A DNA stretch of 64,000 bases. Source: Streptomonospora litoralis. GTDB lineage: Bacteria; Actinomycetota; Actinomycetes; Streptosporangiales; Streptosporangiaceae. The notes under the pieces were generated by a model that saw only the letters and a list, made by a program, of their open reading frames with translations, made no database searches and was not told the DNA's origin. Numbering within the stretch: the stretch's first letter is position 1; each line of letters begins with the position of its first letter. Below, one piece after another: positions 19,185 through 50,935 of the stretch. Location: NCBI RefSeq assembly GCF_004323735.1, contig NZ_CP036455.1, positions 1,979,101 through 2,043,100 on the forward strand, written 5' to 3'. Position numbers and translations under genes: made by a program.

Positions 19185-19252
19185 CGCCGCGGGGCGCGGG
19201 AGCCCGGTCTCGCCGGTGGCCCTGGGAAAACGGAGCGCCGGGGCGGGCCGGC

Positions 19253-19382
19253 GCGGCTCGGGTCTGCTGGGCGGTCTTGTCGGTCTGCCGGGAAGCGGGT
19301 CGCCTGACGGGGAACGACGGGCGCCGAGGACGGCGCCGGGTCGGGCCCGCGCTCAACGGGTCGAGTGCTCGCCGGTGGCGGT
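19253..19382 (-). repeat. Dispersed ~130-nt repeat, one inverted unit
   Basis: Read on the minus strand it starts with core 2 (CACCGGCGAGCACTCGACCCG) shortened by my reading frame of the family and ends with core 1 (CCGGCAGACCGACAAG, then GCCCAGCAGACCCGAGCC). The two cores are about 90 bases apart, as in the other units at 19.9-20.3, 28.2-28.5 and 49.6-50.1 kb. Confidence 0.65.
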
Positions 19383-19469
19383 TGCGGCGGGGCGGCGTTG
19401 GGCCGCCGCGGGCCGGTCGGCGCATCCAACGCGCGGTTTTCACCGGATTCCGGCCGCTGTCCGGTCGAG

Positions 19470-19629
19470 ACCCTGCAATAGGTGGCACCGGCCCCATCGA
19501 GTCTGTCTGTGGGGTTAGATTCGGCGCCGAATCTAACCCCACAGACAGACTCGGCGCGGCTGTTCTCGACGATCTTGTACTTATGGTCACGGAAAGCGTT
19601 TTCCCGTGGCCATAAGAGCAAGATCGTCG
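19470..19629 (-). repeat. Two-hairpin element, copy A
   Basis: A conserved flank (CCCTGCAATAGGTGGCACCG) is followed by a perfect 56-bp palindrome (19498-19553, two 28-base arms, no loop) and, 13 bases later, by an imperfect hairpin (19567-19629) whose stem carries ACTTATGG / CCATAAG around an AAAGCG loop. Copy B of the same structure lies at 50503-50657 in the opposite orientation. Strand is nominal. No transposase or promoter is evident. Intergenic region 19185-20480 contains only this element, the 130-nt repeats and an IS3 scrap. Confidence 0.8.
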
Positions 19630-19869
19630 CCGGGTGAACCGGACATACCGGCGCCGGTTCGCCGGCGTGGTGCCGCCGTGTTGCGGCCGGGCCCGTACCG
19701 GCAGGGGGCCGCGCGGCGGGGCGCGGTCGCGGCCACCGGGAGCTCCGCATCAGGCCCGCCCGGTCGTCGGGCGACGGCCCCCGGGGCTCGCCCACCCGCA
19801 GCCGGGGCCGGTGACCGCCGCCCCGACGACCGCAGGCGTCATCCCACGCCGCCCTCGCTGCCCCGTCGC

Positions 19870-20310
19870 GCCCGCGCCACCGGCGAGCACCCGACCCGTC
19901 GACCGCAGGCGCCACCCCGCGGTGCCCTCGCCGCCTCGCCGCCTCGCCGGCCGCCGCCACCGGCGAGCACCCGACCCGGCAACCGCGGGCCCCGCCATCC
20001 CACGCCGCCCTCGGCGCCGCTTTTCCCTAAGACCACCCGTCGCCCGGCAGACCAACAAGGCCCCACAGCAGACCCGAGCCGCCCGCCGCCGACTGAGCTT
20101 CCCACGTTTGTCCTTCCAAGTCTGGTCTGCTCGCTGGCAGACCGAGGAAGGAAGTTGGTATGGCAGCACCGAGGAAATACCCCATTGAGCTGCGCGAGCG
20201 CGCGGCGCGGTGACCGCGGGCCCGGCCATCCACCGCTGTCGCCGCTGCCTTCTGCTCAGGTCCCCCGGGACCCGGCAGACCAACAAGGCCCAACAAGGCC
20301 GCACAGCAGA
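19870..20310 (+). repeat. Cluster of ~130-nt repeats, interrupted by an IS3 remnant
   Basis: Core 2 (CACCGGCGAGCACCCGACCCG is the full motif at 19877 and again at 19957) occurs twice, and core 1 (GGCAGACCAACAAGGCC... ) occurs at 20046 and 20274. The second core 1 contains an extra tandem CAACAAGGCC. Between the two core 1 copies an IS3-family fragment is inserted. The cluster ends at a shared border GTTCTTAAACACGGCTTAGC (20316-20335). Confidence 0.65.
20160..20213 (+). pseudogene. IS3-family transposase OrfA, N-terminal remnant
   Basis: ATG 20160 has a strong GAGGAAGGAAG ribosome-binding site and encodes MAAPRKYPIELRERAAR before a premature TGA; this is the characteristic start of actinobacterial IS3-family OrfA proteins, normally about 100 residues. 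The 65 bases upstream contain a nested hairpin (TCCTTCC...GGAAGGA around GGTCTGC...GCAGACC), probably the left end of the element. The rest of orfA, orfB and the right end are missing, and the dispersed repeat resumes directly after the stop. Confidence 0.7.
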
Positions 20311-20480
20311 CGGGCGTTCTTAAACACGGCTTAGCTGAATAGCCGATTCGGCTGCCCCGGTTCGTGCGCCTGCGCGTCCGGGCGGGCCGAAACCGGATGA
20401 GCCGCGGGATTGTGTCCCGCCGCCACCGCCACCTGCGTCCTGCGGAGACCGCGTCCGACCGGGTATGGGATTCTGGGCGC

Positions 20481-28156: not shown

Positions 28157-28473
28157 CCCGGGGCATCACATCTAGCCGTGTTCGCCGTCCTCGGCGCTGC
28201 TTTTCCGTAAGATCACCCGTCGTCTTGGCAGGCCAACAAGGCCGCACAGCAGACCCGAGCCGCCGATCCGCCAGGAGCGCCACCGGCGGGCACCCGATCC
28301 GTTGGGCGCGGGCGCCACCCCTCGCCGACCACCGCGACCGGCGGGCACGCGGCCCGGTGGGCGCGGGCCCGGCCATCCGCCGTGCTCGCTGCCGTCTTCC
28401 CGTCGAGTTCGCCCGACACCCGGCAGACCAACAAGGCCGCCCAGCAGACCGGCGTTCTTAAACAGGACTTAGC
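28157..28473 (+). repeat. Cluster of ~130-nt repeats next to the helicase gene
   Basis: Core 1 occurs at 28227 (GGCAGGCCAACAAGGCC) and 28422 (GGCAGACCAACAAGGCC); core 2 occurs near 28272 (CACCGGCGGGCACCCGATCC) and 28330 (GACCGGCGGGCACGCGGCCC). Core 2 to core 1 spacing is again about 90 bases. The cluster ends at the border GTTCTTAAACAGGACTTAGC (28454-28473), nearly identical to that at 20316-20335, and this border contains the stop codon of the minus-strand helicase gene. The gap 27951-28468 holds no gene. Confidence 0.65.
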
Positions 28474-30214
28474 CGACGTCCTTGGCGTCGCGGCGGACCA
28501 CCGTCTTGCGGCCCTTGATGGTGGTGTTCTGCAGCGCGGAGATCACGTCGTCGGCGGCTTGCGAGGGCACCTCCACCAGGGAGAAGCGCTCGGCGATCTC
28601 GATCGCGCCGATGTCGCGGCCGCGCAGTTCCGACTCCCCGGTGATCGCGCCGACGAGGTCCTGCGGGCGCACCCGGGCGCCGCGGCCCGCGCCGATGAAC
28701 AGGCGCGACATCCCGCCGGCGGGCGCGCGGCCGCCGCGCTGCTCGCGGCGTTCGCCCCGCTCGCCGCGGTCCCCGCGATCTCCGCGCTGGTCTCGCCGAC
28801 CGCCGTCGCGCCGCCCGCGGCCCTTGTCCTTCTGCTCGGGCTTGATGCTGACCTCGGGGATCTCCACGTCGTCGTCGACCGGGTTCTGCGACTCGTGGGC
28901 CAGCTTGACCGCCGCCAGCGCCACCTCCATCACGTCGAACTCGTCGGCCAGCGACTCCACCACCACCCGCATGTGCTCGCGGTCGTCCTCGGCCTCCTCG
29001 TCCAGCAGGGTCTCGCGCAGCGCGGCGCTGGTCAGCTCCAGCCGCCGGGCGCGGGCGTCGGCGATCGTGGGGATCTTCTCCACGTTGATCGTGTAGTCGG
29101 TGGCGCGCCGGATGCTCTTCAGCATGCGGTGTTCGCGCGGCTCGACCAGGGTGATGGCGACCCCCTCGCGCCCGGCCCGGCCGACCCGGCCCACGCGGTG
29201 CACGTAGGAGTCCGGGGCCGAAGGCACGTTGTAGTTGAGCACGTGGGTCAGGTGCTCGACGTCGAGCCCGCGCGCGGCCACGTCGGTGGCGATCACCAGG
29301 TCCGTGGTGCCGCTGCGCAGCCGGCCCATGGTGCGGTCGCGCTGCTCCTGGCTCATCCCGCCGTGCAGCGCCTCGGCGCGGTGGCCGCGGCCGTTGAGCA
29401 CCTCGGTGAGCTGGTCGACCTCCTCGCGGGTGCGGCAGAACACGATCGCTGCCGTGGGCGACTCCACGTCCAGGATGCGCCCGATCGCGGCGGGCTTGTG
29501 CGCGCGCGGCACCACGTAGGCGCTTTGGCGCACCAGCGGCGCCTCGCCGACTGCGCGGGTCTCGCGGGCGATCTGGATGCGCACCGGATCGGTCAGGTTG
29601 CCTCCGGCCATCCGCTCGATGCGCGGCGGCATGGTCGCCGAGAACAGCACGGTCTGGCAGTCCTGCGGGATCTCCTCCAGGATCGCCTCGATGTCCTCGG
29701 CGAAGCCCATGTCGAACATTTCGTCGGCCTCGTCCAGCACCGTCATCCGCAGCCCGCTCAGGCTCAGCGTGCCGCGGCCCAGGTGGTCCAGCGCGCGGCC
29801 GGGCGTCGCCACGACCACGTCGACGCCGCGCTCCAGGCCGCGGATCTGGCGGCCGATGGGCTGGCCGCCGTAGACCGGCAGGACCCGCACGCCCAGGTCG
29901 CGGCCGTAGCGGTGCACGGCCTCGCAGACCTGCACGGCCAGCTCCCGGGTGGGCACCAGCACCAGCGACATCGGCTCCAGACCTTCGCGGTCCTGCTCCA
30001 TGCGCTCCAGGATCGGCAGCGCGAACGCCGCCGTCTTGCCGGTGCCGGTGGCGGCCTGGCCCAGCAGGTCGCGGCCCTCGACCAGCGGCGGAATGGCCTC
30101 GCGCTGAATGGGAGTGGGCTCCTCGTAGCCCAGCCGGGACAGCGCGTCGAGAAGCTCCCCCCGCAGCGGCAGGTCGGTGAAACCGGGGGCGGTTTCGGTG
30201 GCGTCGGTGGCCAT
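28469..30214 (-). CDS. deaD: DEAD-box ATP-dependent RNA helicase (DeaD/CsdA type)
   Basis: 581 residues from ATG 30214, with GAGGAG seven bases upstream; longer readings are not needed. Motifs in order: Q motif PTPIQREAIPPLV, motif I AATGTGKTAAFALP, Ia PTRELAVQV, II VLDEADEMFDMGF, III FSATMPP, IV VFCRTREEVDQL, V DVAARGLDVEHL and VI HRVGRVGRAGREG. Then a basic Arg/Gly/Asp-rich stretch (about residues 455-505) and a C-terminal DbpA-type RNA-binding domain ending KTVVRRDAKDVG. Cold-shock and ribosome-assembly roles are known for this group. Its stop codon lies within the border of a dispersed repeat. Confidence 0.96.
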   Translation of the reverse strand: MATDATETAPGFTDLPLRGELLDALSRLGYEEPTPIQREAIPPLVEGRDLLGQAATGTGKTAAFALPILERMEQDREGLEPMSLVLVPTRELAVQVCEAVHRYGRDLGVRVLPVYGGQPIGRQIRGLERGVDVVVATPGRALDHLGRGTLSLSGLRMTVLDEADEMFDMGFAEDIEAILEEIPQDCQTVLFSATMPPRIERMAGGNLTDPVRIQIARETRAVGEAPLVRQSAYVVPRAHKPAAIGRILDVESPTAAIVFCRTREEVDQLTEVLNGRGHRAEALHGGMSQEQRDRTMGRLRSGTTDLVIATDVAARGLDVEHLTHVLNYNVPSAPDSYVHRVGRVGRAGREGVAITLVEPREHRMLKSIRRATDYTINVEKIPTIADARARRLELTSAALRETLLDEEAEDDREHMRVVVESLADEFDVMEVALAAVKLAHESQNPVDDDVEIPEVSIKPEQKDKGRGRRDGGRRDQRGDRGDRGERGERREQRGGRAPAGGMSRLFIGAGRGARVRPQDLVGAITGESELRGRDIGAIEIAERFSLVEVPSQAADDVISALQNTTIKGRKTVVRRDAKDVG

Positions 30215-48717: not shown

Positions 48718-49443
48718 ATGAGCGAGACTCCCGGCGACCCCTATGTGCCCGGCGCCGCTGCGCCGACAGAGCGGACGAGGCTGCGGATGCTGCCGGGGCT
48801 GGGCGCGGTGGCCGCGGTCGCGGTGGCTCTGTGGGGCGGCGGGGCGTTCACCTCGCACGCGACCGCCCGCAGTTGGGAGGACGCCCGGGAGTTCGCCGGC
48901 GTCGACCGACTGGTCATCGACAACCGCGCCCCCGGTGACGTGCGCGTCTCGCTGAGCGAGGGCGGGGGAGGACTCACCCTGGACCGCGCCGTTCGGGAGA
49001 GCATGCTCAACCCCGCCGACATCGACGTGGCCGACGAGGGCGACGGCGGGACCGTCTGGGCGGACTCCCGCTGCGCTCGCAGCTGGCCGGGTCTGGGCAC
49101 GTGCTCGGTCGACTACCGGGCCGCCGGTCCGAGCACCACGGCCGTCGACCTGTCCACGCGCTCCGGCGGCATCGTCGTCACCGGCCTGTCGACCGAGGCC
49201 GCGGCCGAGAGCTCGGGCGGCGACATCACGATCGAGGCGACCCCCCGCGTCGCGAGCATCTCGGCGCGGGCGGGAGCAGGCGACGTCACCGTGACCGTCC
49301 CCGAGGGCAGCGGCCCCTTCCGCGTCACCGGCCGCTCGGAGTCGGGAGAGCGCACGATCGCGGTGCGCACCACCACGAAGGCGTCGGCGCCCACCTTCGA
49401 TGTGTCCACATCATCCGGTGACGTTGCCGTCCACTACCGCTGA
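48718..49443 (+). CDS. Membrane-anchored DUF4097-like protein
   Basis: 241 residues with a GAGGAGG ribosome-binding site. One membrane helix (about residues 25-45, LPGLGAVAAVAVALWGGGAF) after a short cytoplasmic start; the extracytoplasmic part is a right-handed beta-type repeat with DUF4097 features (LVIDNRAPGDVRVSLSEG, VDLSTRSGGIVVTGLS, ITIEATPRVASISARAGAGD, FDVSTSSGDVAVHYR). Two cysteines (SRCARS, LGTCSVDY) may form a disulfide. Function unknown. The 480-base gap before it (48236-48717) holds no gene I can support. Confidence 0.75.
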   Translation: MSETPGDPYVPGAAAPTERTRLRMLPGLGAVAAVAVALWGGGAFTSHATARSWEDAREFAGVDRLVIDNRAPGDVRVSLSEGGGGLTLDRAVRESMLNPADIDVADEGDGGTVWADSRCARSWPGLGTCSVDYRAAGPSTTAVDLSTRSGGIVVTGLSTEAAAESSGGDITIEATPRVASISARAGAGDVTVTVPEGSGPFRVTGRSESGERTIAVRTTTKASAPTFDVSTSSGDVAVHYR

Positions 49444-49621
49444 GGCGAGGGGCGGCGAGACACCCCGCTGAAGCTCGTCATAACGCCGGAATCACCCACC
49501 GTGATACGACACGACAGACACGACAGGTGATCGCCGACCCCAACCGCGACGCTCAATTCCGATGAACGGCCGTCGGTACCCCGACGGTCCTCTGCTCGGC
49601 GGTTGCGCACCTGGCGGAGGG

Positions 49622-50085
49622 GCGGCTCGGGTCTACTGGGCGGTCTTGCCGGTCTGCCGGGGTGCGGGTGCTCGTGTCGGGAAAGCGGCGGCGACGGTGG
49701 CGGATGGCCGGGCCCGCGTTCGCCGGGTCGGGTGCCCGCCGGTGATGCACGCGACGGGGGCGGCGCGGGGTGGCGCCTGTGCCCACCGGGTCGGGTGCTC
49801 GCCGGTGTCGGCGGCCGGCGAGGCGGCTCCGGTCTGCTGTGCGGCCTTGATGGTCTGCCGGGTAGCGGGTGGTCTATCGGAAAGGCGGCGGCAACGATGG
49901 CAGCGGGGCCGGACCCGCGATCACCGGTCCGGATGTCCGCCGGTCGAGCACCCGACGGGGCGGCCCGGGGCCGCTGTGCGGCCTTGATGGTCTGCCGGGT
50001 AGCGGGTGGTCTCGCTGGGAAGCGGCGAGGGCGGCGGTGGGAGGGGCCTGCGGTTACCGGGTCGGGGCCCGCCGGTGCCGGCGCG
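49622..50085 (-). repeat. Three tandem copies of the ~130-nt repeat
   Basis: Units start at 49622, 49826 and 49970 (read on the plus strand) with core 1 in reverse (GGTCTGCTGTGCGGCCTTGA and GGTCTGCCGGGTAGCGGGTG), followed about 90 bases later by core 2 in reverse (CCGGGTCGGGTGCCCGCCGG). An additional core 2 is at about 49788. This is the densest cluster in the window. The whole gap 49444-51108 lacks a credible gene; it contains these repeats, hairpin element B and a further degenerate repeat. Confidence 0.65.
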
Positions 50086-50502
50086 CGGCGGGGCAGTTGG
50101 CGGGGGCCATGCGGCCGGATCATGACCACGAGTTGCACGTACGTGCGGTGGCATCGGCTTCGGTGTCGCCCCGAGGTGCCATCCCCGCACCGTCGTTCCG
50201 CGATACGAAAAAGCATGGGGTGTTTTGTCCACCAATGCCCGAGTTCCCGATGGGTCCGCCTCCGCGTCGCGGCGGAGGTGGCGCACGAGGCGCGCCGAAT
50301 GGCGCGAAAAGCGCCCCCGGCGTCGACTTTTCGTGCGCCTCGTGGCCGCTGCGTCCGCCGAGGCCGCCCGCAAAACGGGCATAGACCCCCAAAATTCCAC
50401 TCCATCGGGGGTGGGTCTCCCGGCGGCCGCGCCCGGGCGCCACGAGCGACGTGTCGTCGCCCCCGGGCCCCGATCCGGCGCATGCCGGTTCATCCGGCGA
50501 TG

Positions 50503-50657
50503 ATCGCGAACTTATGGCCGCGGAATACGCTTTCCTGCGACCATAAGTTCGCGATAGACGGGTCAAGCCGCGCCGAGTCTGTCTGCAGGGTTGGATTCGG
50601 CGTCGAATCCAACCCTGCAGACAGACTCGATGGGACCGGTGCCACCTATTGCAGGGT
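50503..50657 (+). repeat. Two-hairpin element, copy B
   Basis: Hairpin 2 occupies 50503-50555 (ATCGCGAACTTATGG left arm; loop around TACGC), hairpin 1 occupies 50574-50629 (26-base perfect arms and a central GCGT), and the conserved flank (CCTATTGCAGGG and ACCGGTGCCACC, reversed) ends at 50657. Relative to copy A the element is inverted and its hairpin 1 differs at three arm positions, each matched by the complementary change in the other arm. Confidence 0.8.
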
Positions 50658-50769
50658 TTCGACTCGTCCGGGGGACGCCCGTTCCCGACCATGGTCGCCA
50701 CCCAGCGTGGTGAATGGCCGCCGGTGGGGAGCACCAGCTGGCCGTACCTGGGGATTTCCCGCTGGCCAC

Positions 50770-50935
50770 TGACAGCCCAGCCGACCCGAGCCGCCGATCC
50801 GCCGCGCGGACCACCGGCGAGCACCCGATCCGACAACCGCAGGCCCAGCCCACCGCCGTCCGCGCCGCCCCCGTCGGCTGCGCCACTGGCGGGCACCCGG
50901 CCCGATGGGCGCGCGCCCGGTCCTGCTGTGACCGA
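50770..50935 (+). repeat. Degenerate ~130-nt repeat, plus orientation
   Basis: Remains of core 1 (CAGCCGACCCGAGCCGCC at about 50777) are followed by two core 2 copies (CACCGGCGAGCACCCGATCC at about 50812; CACTGGCGGGCACCCGGCCC at about 50884). Downstream, 50935-51000 is AT-rich (TTGGAC and GGGTAATAAT) and probably holds the promoter of the Excalibur-protein gene. Confidence 0.5.

Follow-up and report, generated by a model that had tools for sequence, protein, structure and literature searches.

Two hairpins stand side by side, in the same order, at two sites of a 64-kb stretch of the Streptomonospora litoralis genome (the entire analysed stretch, hereafter, the window), and the paired arms of one of them differ between the sites only by compensated base changes. 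The question raised by this locus is whether the hairpins are a structured RNA, a protein-binding site or part of a mobile element, and whether the compensated changes imply selection for the structure.

Two hairpins at two sites

The palindrome in copy A, denoted H1, is perfect, spans 56 bp (19498-19553) and is followed by the loop-bearing hairpin H2 (19567-19629). Both recur in copy B (H2 at 50503-50555, H1 at 50574-50629) in the orientation opposite to that of copy A and with an identical flank, TGCAATAGGTGGCACCGG, as originally predicted. The three paired differences between the H1 arms of the two copies (T-A/C-G, G-C/A-T and A-T/G-C) are all compensated. Copy B has one unpaired position in the centre of H1, and only copy A is a perfect palindrome. 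The features at the two sites are:

19470..19497, plus strand: conserved prefix preceding H1, copy A (from the consensus; its core TGCAATAGGTGGCACCGG is identical in copy B)
19498..19553, plus strand: H1, perfect 56-bp palindrome, copy A (sequence, folding, covariation)
19567..19629, plus strand: H2, loop-bearing hairpin, copy A (sequence, folding, covariation)
50503..50555, minus strand: H2, copy B (sequence)
50574..50629, minus strand: H1 with one unpaired centre position, copy B (sequence)

The hairpins are not a product of chance because both strands of the copy A stretch fold far below shuffled sequences: DNA folding of 144 bases yielded z-scores of -13.8 and -12.7 for the two strands, and none of 200 shuffles was equally stable. 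RNA folding of copies A and B gave z-scores between -12.8 and -14.8 in four folds. The expectation that the hairpins match no described family was borne out for Rfam, where no family reached the curated gathering threshold in the 64-kb window; two weak matches to microRNA precursors score far below the threshold (28.9 of 99 bits and 22.6 of 71 bits), and we regard these as fortuitous.

Abundance of H1 and H2 in the S. litoralis genome

The original prediction described a two-copy element bounded by the two hairpins, and in both respects it was wrong: a 171-base query has 85 matches in the window genome (both strands counted), and homology between the copies extends far beyond H1 and H2. The search with covariance models built from the copies, proposed in the same prediction, did reveal many further copies of both hairpins in this genome, namely, 115 matches for H1 and at least 150 for H2 (both strands counted). 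Counted by position, H2 occupies at least 92 distinct places (34 read first and 58 fetched from the H2-model matches listed), and H1 at least 45 (33 rows of the alignment A1 and 12 further copies). An intact H1 is missing at 65 of the 92 H2 places. In particular, the 5' arm and the centre of H1 are gone at all 58 further H2 places, 30 of which retain 1-18 bases of the H1 3' arm, and the right breakpoints of the loss lie at the 3' foot of H1. Searches of plasmid and phage records with the core of copy A yielded nothing at E 1e-5.

The hairpins are internal to a composite element

H1 and H2 are embedded in a larger non-coding repeat with no recognised coding region. In the consensus layout, head-to-tail wing units of ~140 bp lead into a core of ~0.7 kb, which is followed by the same wing units in inverted orientation; the core (16 of the 40 copies were left out of its consensus as partial) opens with the conserved prefix, followed by H1 and H2. 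The outer boundary consists of terminal inverted repeats, AGCCGTGTTTAAGAA, next to one of two sub-terminal sequences that distinguish type-1 and type-2 ends. The copies with both ends recognised (n=15) range from 219 to 1843 bp, and the shortest, 219-bp copy carries neither H1 nor H2, so that the hairpins are to be regarded as cargo. Neither of the window copies is complete, and the window also contains a core-less remnant:

19237..20334, plus strand: composite element, copy A; left end eroded, right end intact; extent common to at least three other loci
19256..19391, plus strand: left wing unit, copy A (nhmmer, wing-unit profile, E 4e-28)
19875..20079, minus strand: right wing, copy A, two inverted units (19875-19935 and 19952-20079; nhmmer, wing-unit profile)
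20094..20193, no strand: 100-bp interruption within the right wing, copy A, not covered by the other copies
20195..20311, minus strand: third, outermost inverted wing unit, copy A (nhmmer, wing-unit profile)
20317..20331, minus strand: right terminal inverted repeat AGCCGTGTTTAAGAA, type-2 end, copy A, then TA G at 20332-20334
28182..28469, minus strand: core-less remnant with inverted wing units, its type-2 end lying at 28455-28469 (profile matches)
49593..50924, minus strand: composite element, copy B; both ends eroded, no ends found by the profile
49625..50093, plus strand: wing units, copy B (49625-49746, 49826-49945 and 49966-50093; nhmmer, wing-unit profile)
50811..50869, minus strand: inverted wing unit, copy B (nhmmer, wing-unit profile)

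Within copy B, the stretch 50663-50775 is covered by fewer copies. The core of this copy includes, at 50260-50345, a hairpin-like stretch (CACGAGGCGC...GCGCCTCGTG) that is present in other core copies as well and is possibly a third conserved hairpin. The interruption of the right wing in copy A (20094-20193) resembles, by eye, the 5' end of an insertion sequence, with an apparent gene start, MAAPRKYPIELRER.

Element ends, CTAG targets and stop codons

The terminal repeat AGCCGTGTTTAAGAA has 47 matches with at most one mismatch in the window genome, compared to none for the backwards pattern used as a control. TA precedes 37 of the 49 distinct ends, and CTA precedes 31; for comparison, TA occurs at 648 of about 64,000 positions in the window. 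Among the 15 two-ended copies, nine have TA on both sides (six have CTA on both sides) and three on one side only; TA at both sides is lacking in six.

The ends are closely associated with stop codons, as judged from gene calls made with our own codon-usage script rather than an annotation. Of the ends, 46 have a called gene on their outer side; 36 of these face the stop codon of that gene, and at 19 of the 36 the stop codon is completed by the first base of the element or by whichever base occupies that position (13 TAA, 3 TGA and 3 TAG). The type-2 end of the core-less remnant (28455-28469) is an example, its TA|A being the stop codon of the gene at 28469-30214 on the minus strand. Genes reading into an element by more than four bases were found at none of the 49 ends. 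If elements inserted randomly into genes, two other frames would be expected for each in-frame case; the lack of genes reading into elements in other frames is explained by the proposed CTAG target, which is scarce inside genes. The 135 CTAG sites in 80 loci of related named genomes (628 kb) comprise 50 stop codons, 70 intergenic sites and 15 sites inside genes, and none of the nine CTAG sites in the 64-kb window lies inside a gene.

Absence of the element at the same sites in relatives

At site A, the gap between the anchor genes is ~1.27 kb in S. litoralis versus 128, 127 and 76 bp in S. alba YIM 90003 (G001), G005 and Streptomonospora sp. PA3 (G004), respectively (the window genome is G000). 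In G002 and G003, this gap is about 650-680 bp, with another gene in between, and all five relatives lack the element at site A. At site B, the anchors lie 2.84 kb apart in S. litoralis, as against 243 bp (G001) and 222 bp (G005), and the element is absent in both of these relatives, which keep both anchor genes. Neither blastn of elements A and B nor the H2 model produced a match in the nine relative stretches. The absence of the element is shown here at the level of anchor-gene spacing and sequence matches. Site A is not simply empty of H1 because, in G005, a weak H1-like palindrome (L243:839-906; H1 model, E 0.00045) is located just 3' of the stop codon of the gene which, in S. litoralis, borders copy A; an old solo H1 may have resided at this site before the arrival of the element. 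Separately, the gene at 48718-49443, beside copy B, is also absent between the same anchors in G001 and G005.

The suggestion of a non-autonomous mobile element, one of those entertained in the original prediction, is well supported by the many copies, terminal inverted repeats, TA flanks and absence at the same sites in relatives. We consider it likely that H1 and H2 are internal parts of a non-autonomous, MITE-like element of 0.2-1.8 kb that targets CTAG/TA and carries the hairpins as cargo. MITEs are usually smaller than about 600 bp, and we use the term MITE-like rather than MITE because 13 of the 15 two-ended copies are longer than 600 bp. A transposase encoded elsewhere would cut at the inverted repeats, and insertion would occur at the TA within CTAG. 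Insertions would fall at gene ends because, in this 72% G+C genome, CTAG is scarce within genes and frequently coincides with a stop codon; with its first base, A, the element would then extend TA to TAA and spare the neighbouring gene.

Search for a mobilising transposase

No transposase with matching ends was found in the window genome among the members of PF13358, PF01609 and PF01797. The three IS630-type copies (PF13358) in the genome resemble the element in that they have a CTAG/TA target and in that the stop codon is completed by the target: the transposase frame reaches the edge of the insertion sequence, and its stop codon consists of the target TA and the next base. Their inverted repeat, GTGTTCTGCGCCTGAAATCC, however, differs from the AGCCGTGTTTAAGAA of the element, and they were rejected as the direct partner. 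The three DDE_Tnp_1 copies (PF01609) were rejected as well because their ends differ from those of the element. The IS630-type copies (L339-L341; G000:C1:1968776, 3903579 and 5228281) are near-identical and reside in CTAG targets; one of them, G000:C1:1968776-1969213, directly abuts one end of a repeat element.

The Y1 transposase (PF01797) has no matches in seven of the ten genomes searched, including five that carry H1 or H2, namely, G001 and G004, with many copies of H1 or H2, and G011, G093 and G121. This finding bears on repetitive extragenic palindromes. The REP/BIME family consists of extragenic palindromes that occur in many copies near the 3' ends of genes, and H1 and H2, being short, numerous and extragenic palindromes near 3' ends, fit that description. 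Nevertheless, several H1/H2 carriers, these five among them, lack the Y1 transposase (RAYT) that would spread such palindromes, the element in the window has TA-flanked inverted repeats rather than the REP structure, and there is no GTAG/GGAG foot in alignment A1. Given that Y1 is not co-distributed with H1 and H2, RAYT-driven REP was rejected as the main reading, and we consider this origin very improbable.

Solo hairpins near gene ends in other Nocardiopsidaceae

In surveys of 160 genomes of the family at E 1e-6 or better, H1 was detected in six and H2 in 20, the latter representing 12 of 68 genera; with 32 (H1) and 31 (H2) candidates scored per genome, the copy numbers from these surveys are lower bounds. 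Both hairpins also occur as solitary copies in other Nocardiopsidaceae, and the solo H2 carriers among the matches listed are Streptomonospora, Nocardiopsis species and a record named Glycomyces fuscus. The latter (TRM 49117, NYMS01 records; L119 and others) contains many H2 hairpins typical of Nocardiopsidaceae, and the species name on these records may be wrong.

The 81 solo H2 sites in named genomes are distributed over 38 convergent, 37 tandem and 6 divergent gene pairs, with none inside genes, whereas the control gaps of at least 75 bp in the same loci include 38 convergent, 150 tandem and 93 divergent ones. At least one gene end precedes H2 at 75 of the 81 sites, and the closest stop codon upstream is a median of 51 bp away (n=75). 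The H1 or composite places with genes called on both sides (n=64; 15 of 79 places were dropped because a gene call was missing on at least one side) include 21 convergent, 39 tandem and 4 divergent pairs. In the window genome, gene orientation relative to H1 or the composite shows no preference (18 ++ and 21 --), and H1 lies hundreds of bases away from gene ends. At two gene pairs (L038/L119 and L090/L172), one species carries H1 and another H2, as though either hairpin could take the place of the other.

Our best guess is that H1 and H2 play a terminator-like role. Several observations speak against such a role. There is no T tract, that is, no enrichment of T 3' of H2 (T fraction of 0.107, compared to 0.124 further away); H1 is distant from gene ends in the window genome; and there is no wobble bias to the transcript strand. 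At the 37 tandem solo H2 sites, GU wobbles numbered 61 on the transcribed strand and 51 on the other (p 0.56), so that wobble direction was discarded as a proof of RNA-level selection. The folding energy difference at the tandem sites is -1.5 kcal/mol (p 0.08), with a value of -1.4 at convergent sites, where the choice of strand is arbitrary. Tentatively, H1 and H2 could be two families of portable hairpins, found on their own just 3' of stop codons in other Nocardiopsidaceae; there, they might work as RNA hairpins that are terminator-like in both directions or protect 3' ends, and the element would carry one of each as cargo.

Covariation and the origin of compensated changes

Both hairpins contain covarying pairs, the outcome that was originally put forward as support, whether copies from one species or from several are compared. 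In the H1 alignment of the window genome (A1), 95.8% of the cells are paired, and 11 of the 26 pairs are changed on both sides, with 62 cells showing two-sided changes compared to 21 in shuffles. Across G000, G004 and G005 (A3; a selection of 52 from the H1 copies read), 93.6% of the cells are paired, and 18 of the 26 pairs are changed on both sides; the two-sided changes amount to 243 cells compared to 101 in shuffles and at most 38 in slid controls. For H2, 90.8% of the cells are paired, 11 of the 19 pairs are changed on both sides, and 66 cells show two-sided changes compared to 21.8 in shuffles. In all these comparisons, the controls do not remove relatedness, that is, phylogeny is not fully controlled. 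The excess of GU/AC in A3 (65 versus 26) was not used as evidence because row orientation had been set by whichever model strand scored better.

The original prediction took selection for the structure to be the simplest reading of the compensated changes. This is not established, in view of the negative wobble test and of the two-armed H1 differences between copies with flanks ~2% apart. The pairing in H1 and H2 might be maintained by selection for the hairpin, by template-switch repair or by both. Hairpin-templated template switching is described in PMC8794818 as a non-selective source of compensated changes. A purely mutational origin, with template switching or cruciform processing copying one arm into the other, recombination between copies swapping palindromes and no cellular function, is a serious alternative to which we assign somewhat less than an even chance. 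H1 copies with flanks only 2% apart differ at 3 paired-arm positions, and those with flanks 5-6% apart at 6-9, which speaks for such a process. Furthermore, the same H1 haplotype is present on different flanks, some copies combine arms of two haplotypes, and H1 of copy B and that of L013 have the same arms and mirror-image centres, all of which points to repair and recombination; the centres of L008 and L013 (GACGCC and GGCGTC), which share their H1 arms, are mirror images, as after an inversion of the centre. The loss of the 5' arm and centre of H1 at 58 of 58 further H2 places is what would be expected of an unstable palindrome, and the lack of wobble bias to the transcript strand at solo H2 sites fits this origin, too. 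However, repair should erase the loop, the bulges and the conserved G-T pair of H2, and yet these are preserved; H2 is found near stop codons in several genera; and the H1 arms are less divergent than the flanks (mean distance of 0.10 versus 0.24 and 0.19).

A structured non-coding RNA encoded by the element, the function of which would be reflected in the covariation, could account for the strong covariation in H1 and H2 and for the folding of both strands far below shuffles. We nevertheless consider it improbable, given that no Rfam family was detected at the gathering threshold, that most H2 places have lost the intact H1, that both orientations relative to genes occur and that the solo sites show no sense-strand wobble bias. 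Slightly less probable still is recognition of H1 by a DNA-binding protein that acts as a dimer, for instance in chromosome organisation: H1 does combine perfect symmetry with a centre, TCG-C--CGA, that is invariant in the 52 copies of A3, but the arm bases vary freely while pairing is kept, and a protein that reads bases would not tolerate such changes.

The MITE-like element might, in addition, be harmless by virtue of its end, through the combination of a rare CTAG/stop-codon target, a stop restored by the first base, two-way terminators and self-templated repair of the stems. This extension we regard as speculative and, on balance, doubtful. If it were correct, the element would supply genes of this lineage with new 3' ends, and the perfect stems would result from self-templated repair rather than from slow compensatory mutation.

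Relation to known repeats

The closest parallels are found in Streptococcus pneumoniae. According to PMC3049150, BOX repeats are built of modules and contain varying numbers of inner units in tandem; the inverted repeats of RUP resemble those of IS630-Spn1; and SPRITE is a terminator-like hairpin repeat enriched near gene 3' ends. The element resembles RUP and BOX in spread and modular build and SPRITE in the position of the hairpins. The difference is that, here, all three traits are combined in one high-G+C element family, with sizes up to 1.8 kb, covarying hairpins, no T tract and no partner insertion sequence found. The MITEs Correia/NEMIS, ERIC and RUP, according to PMC2229807, have terminal inverted repeats, TA at the ends, a target duplication and no protein; their transcripts are predicted to form long stem-loops, and they are shorter than 200 bp and mostly A+T-rich. 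The S. litoralis element shares with them the terminal inverted repeats, the TA at the ends and the lack of a protein, but differs in its size of 0.2-1.8 kb, the wing units and the stop-completing end. The element is not filed as a member of BOX, RUP, SPRITE or the listed MITE families; what is unusual about it is that its end restores stop codons and that H1 is diverse while remaining self-complementary. Searches of the literature, with subscription journals largely outside their scope, found no reports on Nocardiopsis palindromic repeats, actinobacterial REP/RAYT or Streptomonospora transposable elements, and those on Streptomonospora genome repeats and on MITEs in Streptomyces or Nocardiopsis returned nothing on such elements among the titles listed.

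The element illustrates how a mobile element could coexist with a dense genome: the choice of target alone would bring it to stop codons, and, thanks to its end, the stop is retained. With dozens of sister palindromes in one genome, compensated changes, arm mixing, inversion of the centre and deletion of the palindrome can be traced, and the H1 set lets selection and template switching be separated as sources of RNA-like covariation. For annotation pipelines, the implication is that strong covariation alone is not proof of a functional RNA.

Streptomonospora sp. PA3 has long composites of its own (L063, L070, L073 and L078), in which H1 and H2 are ~90-150 bp apart. An inner sequence of these composites, AGCCGTGTCTAAGAA, resembles the end of the S. 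litoralis element, without the preceding CTA.
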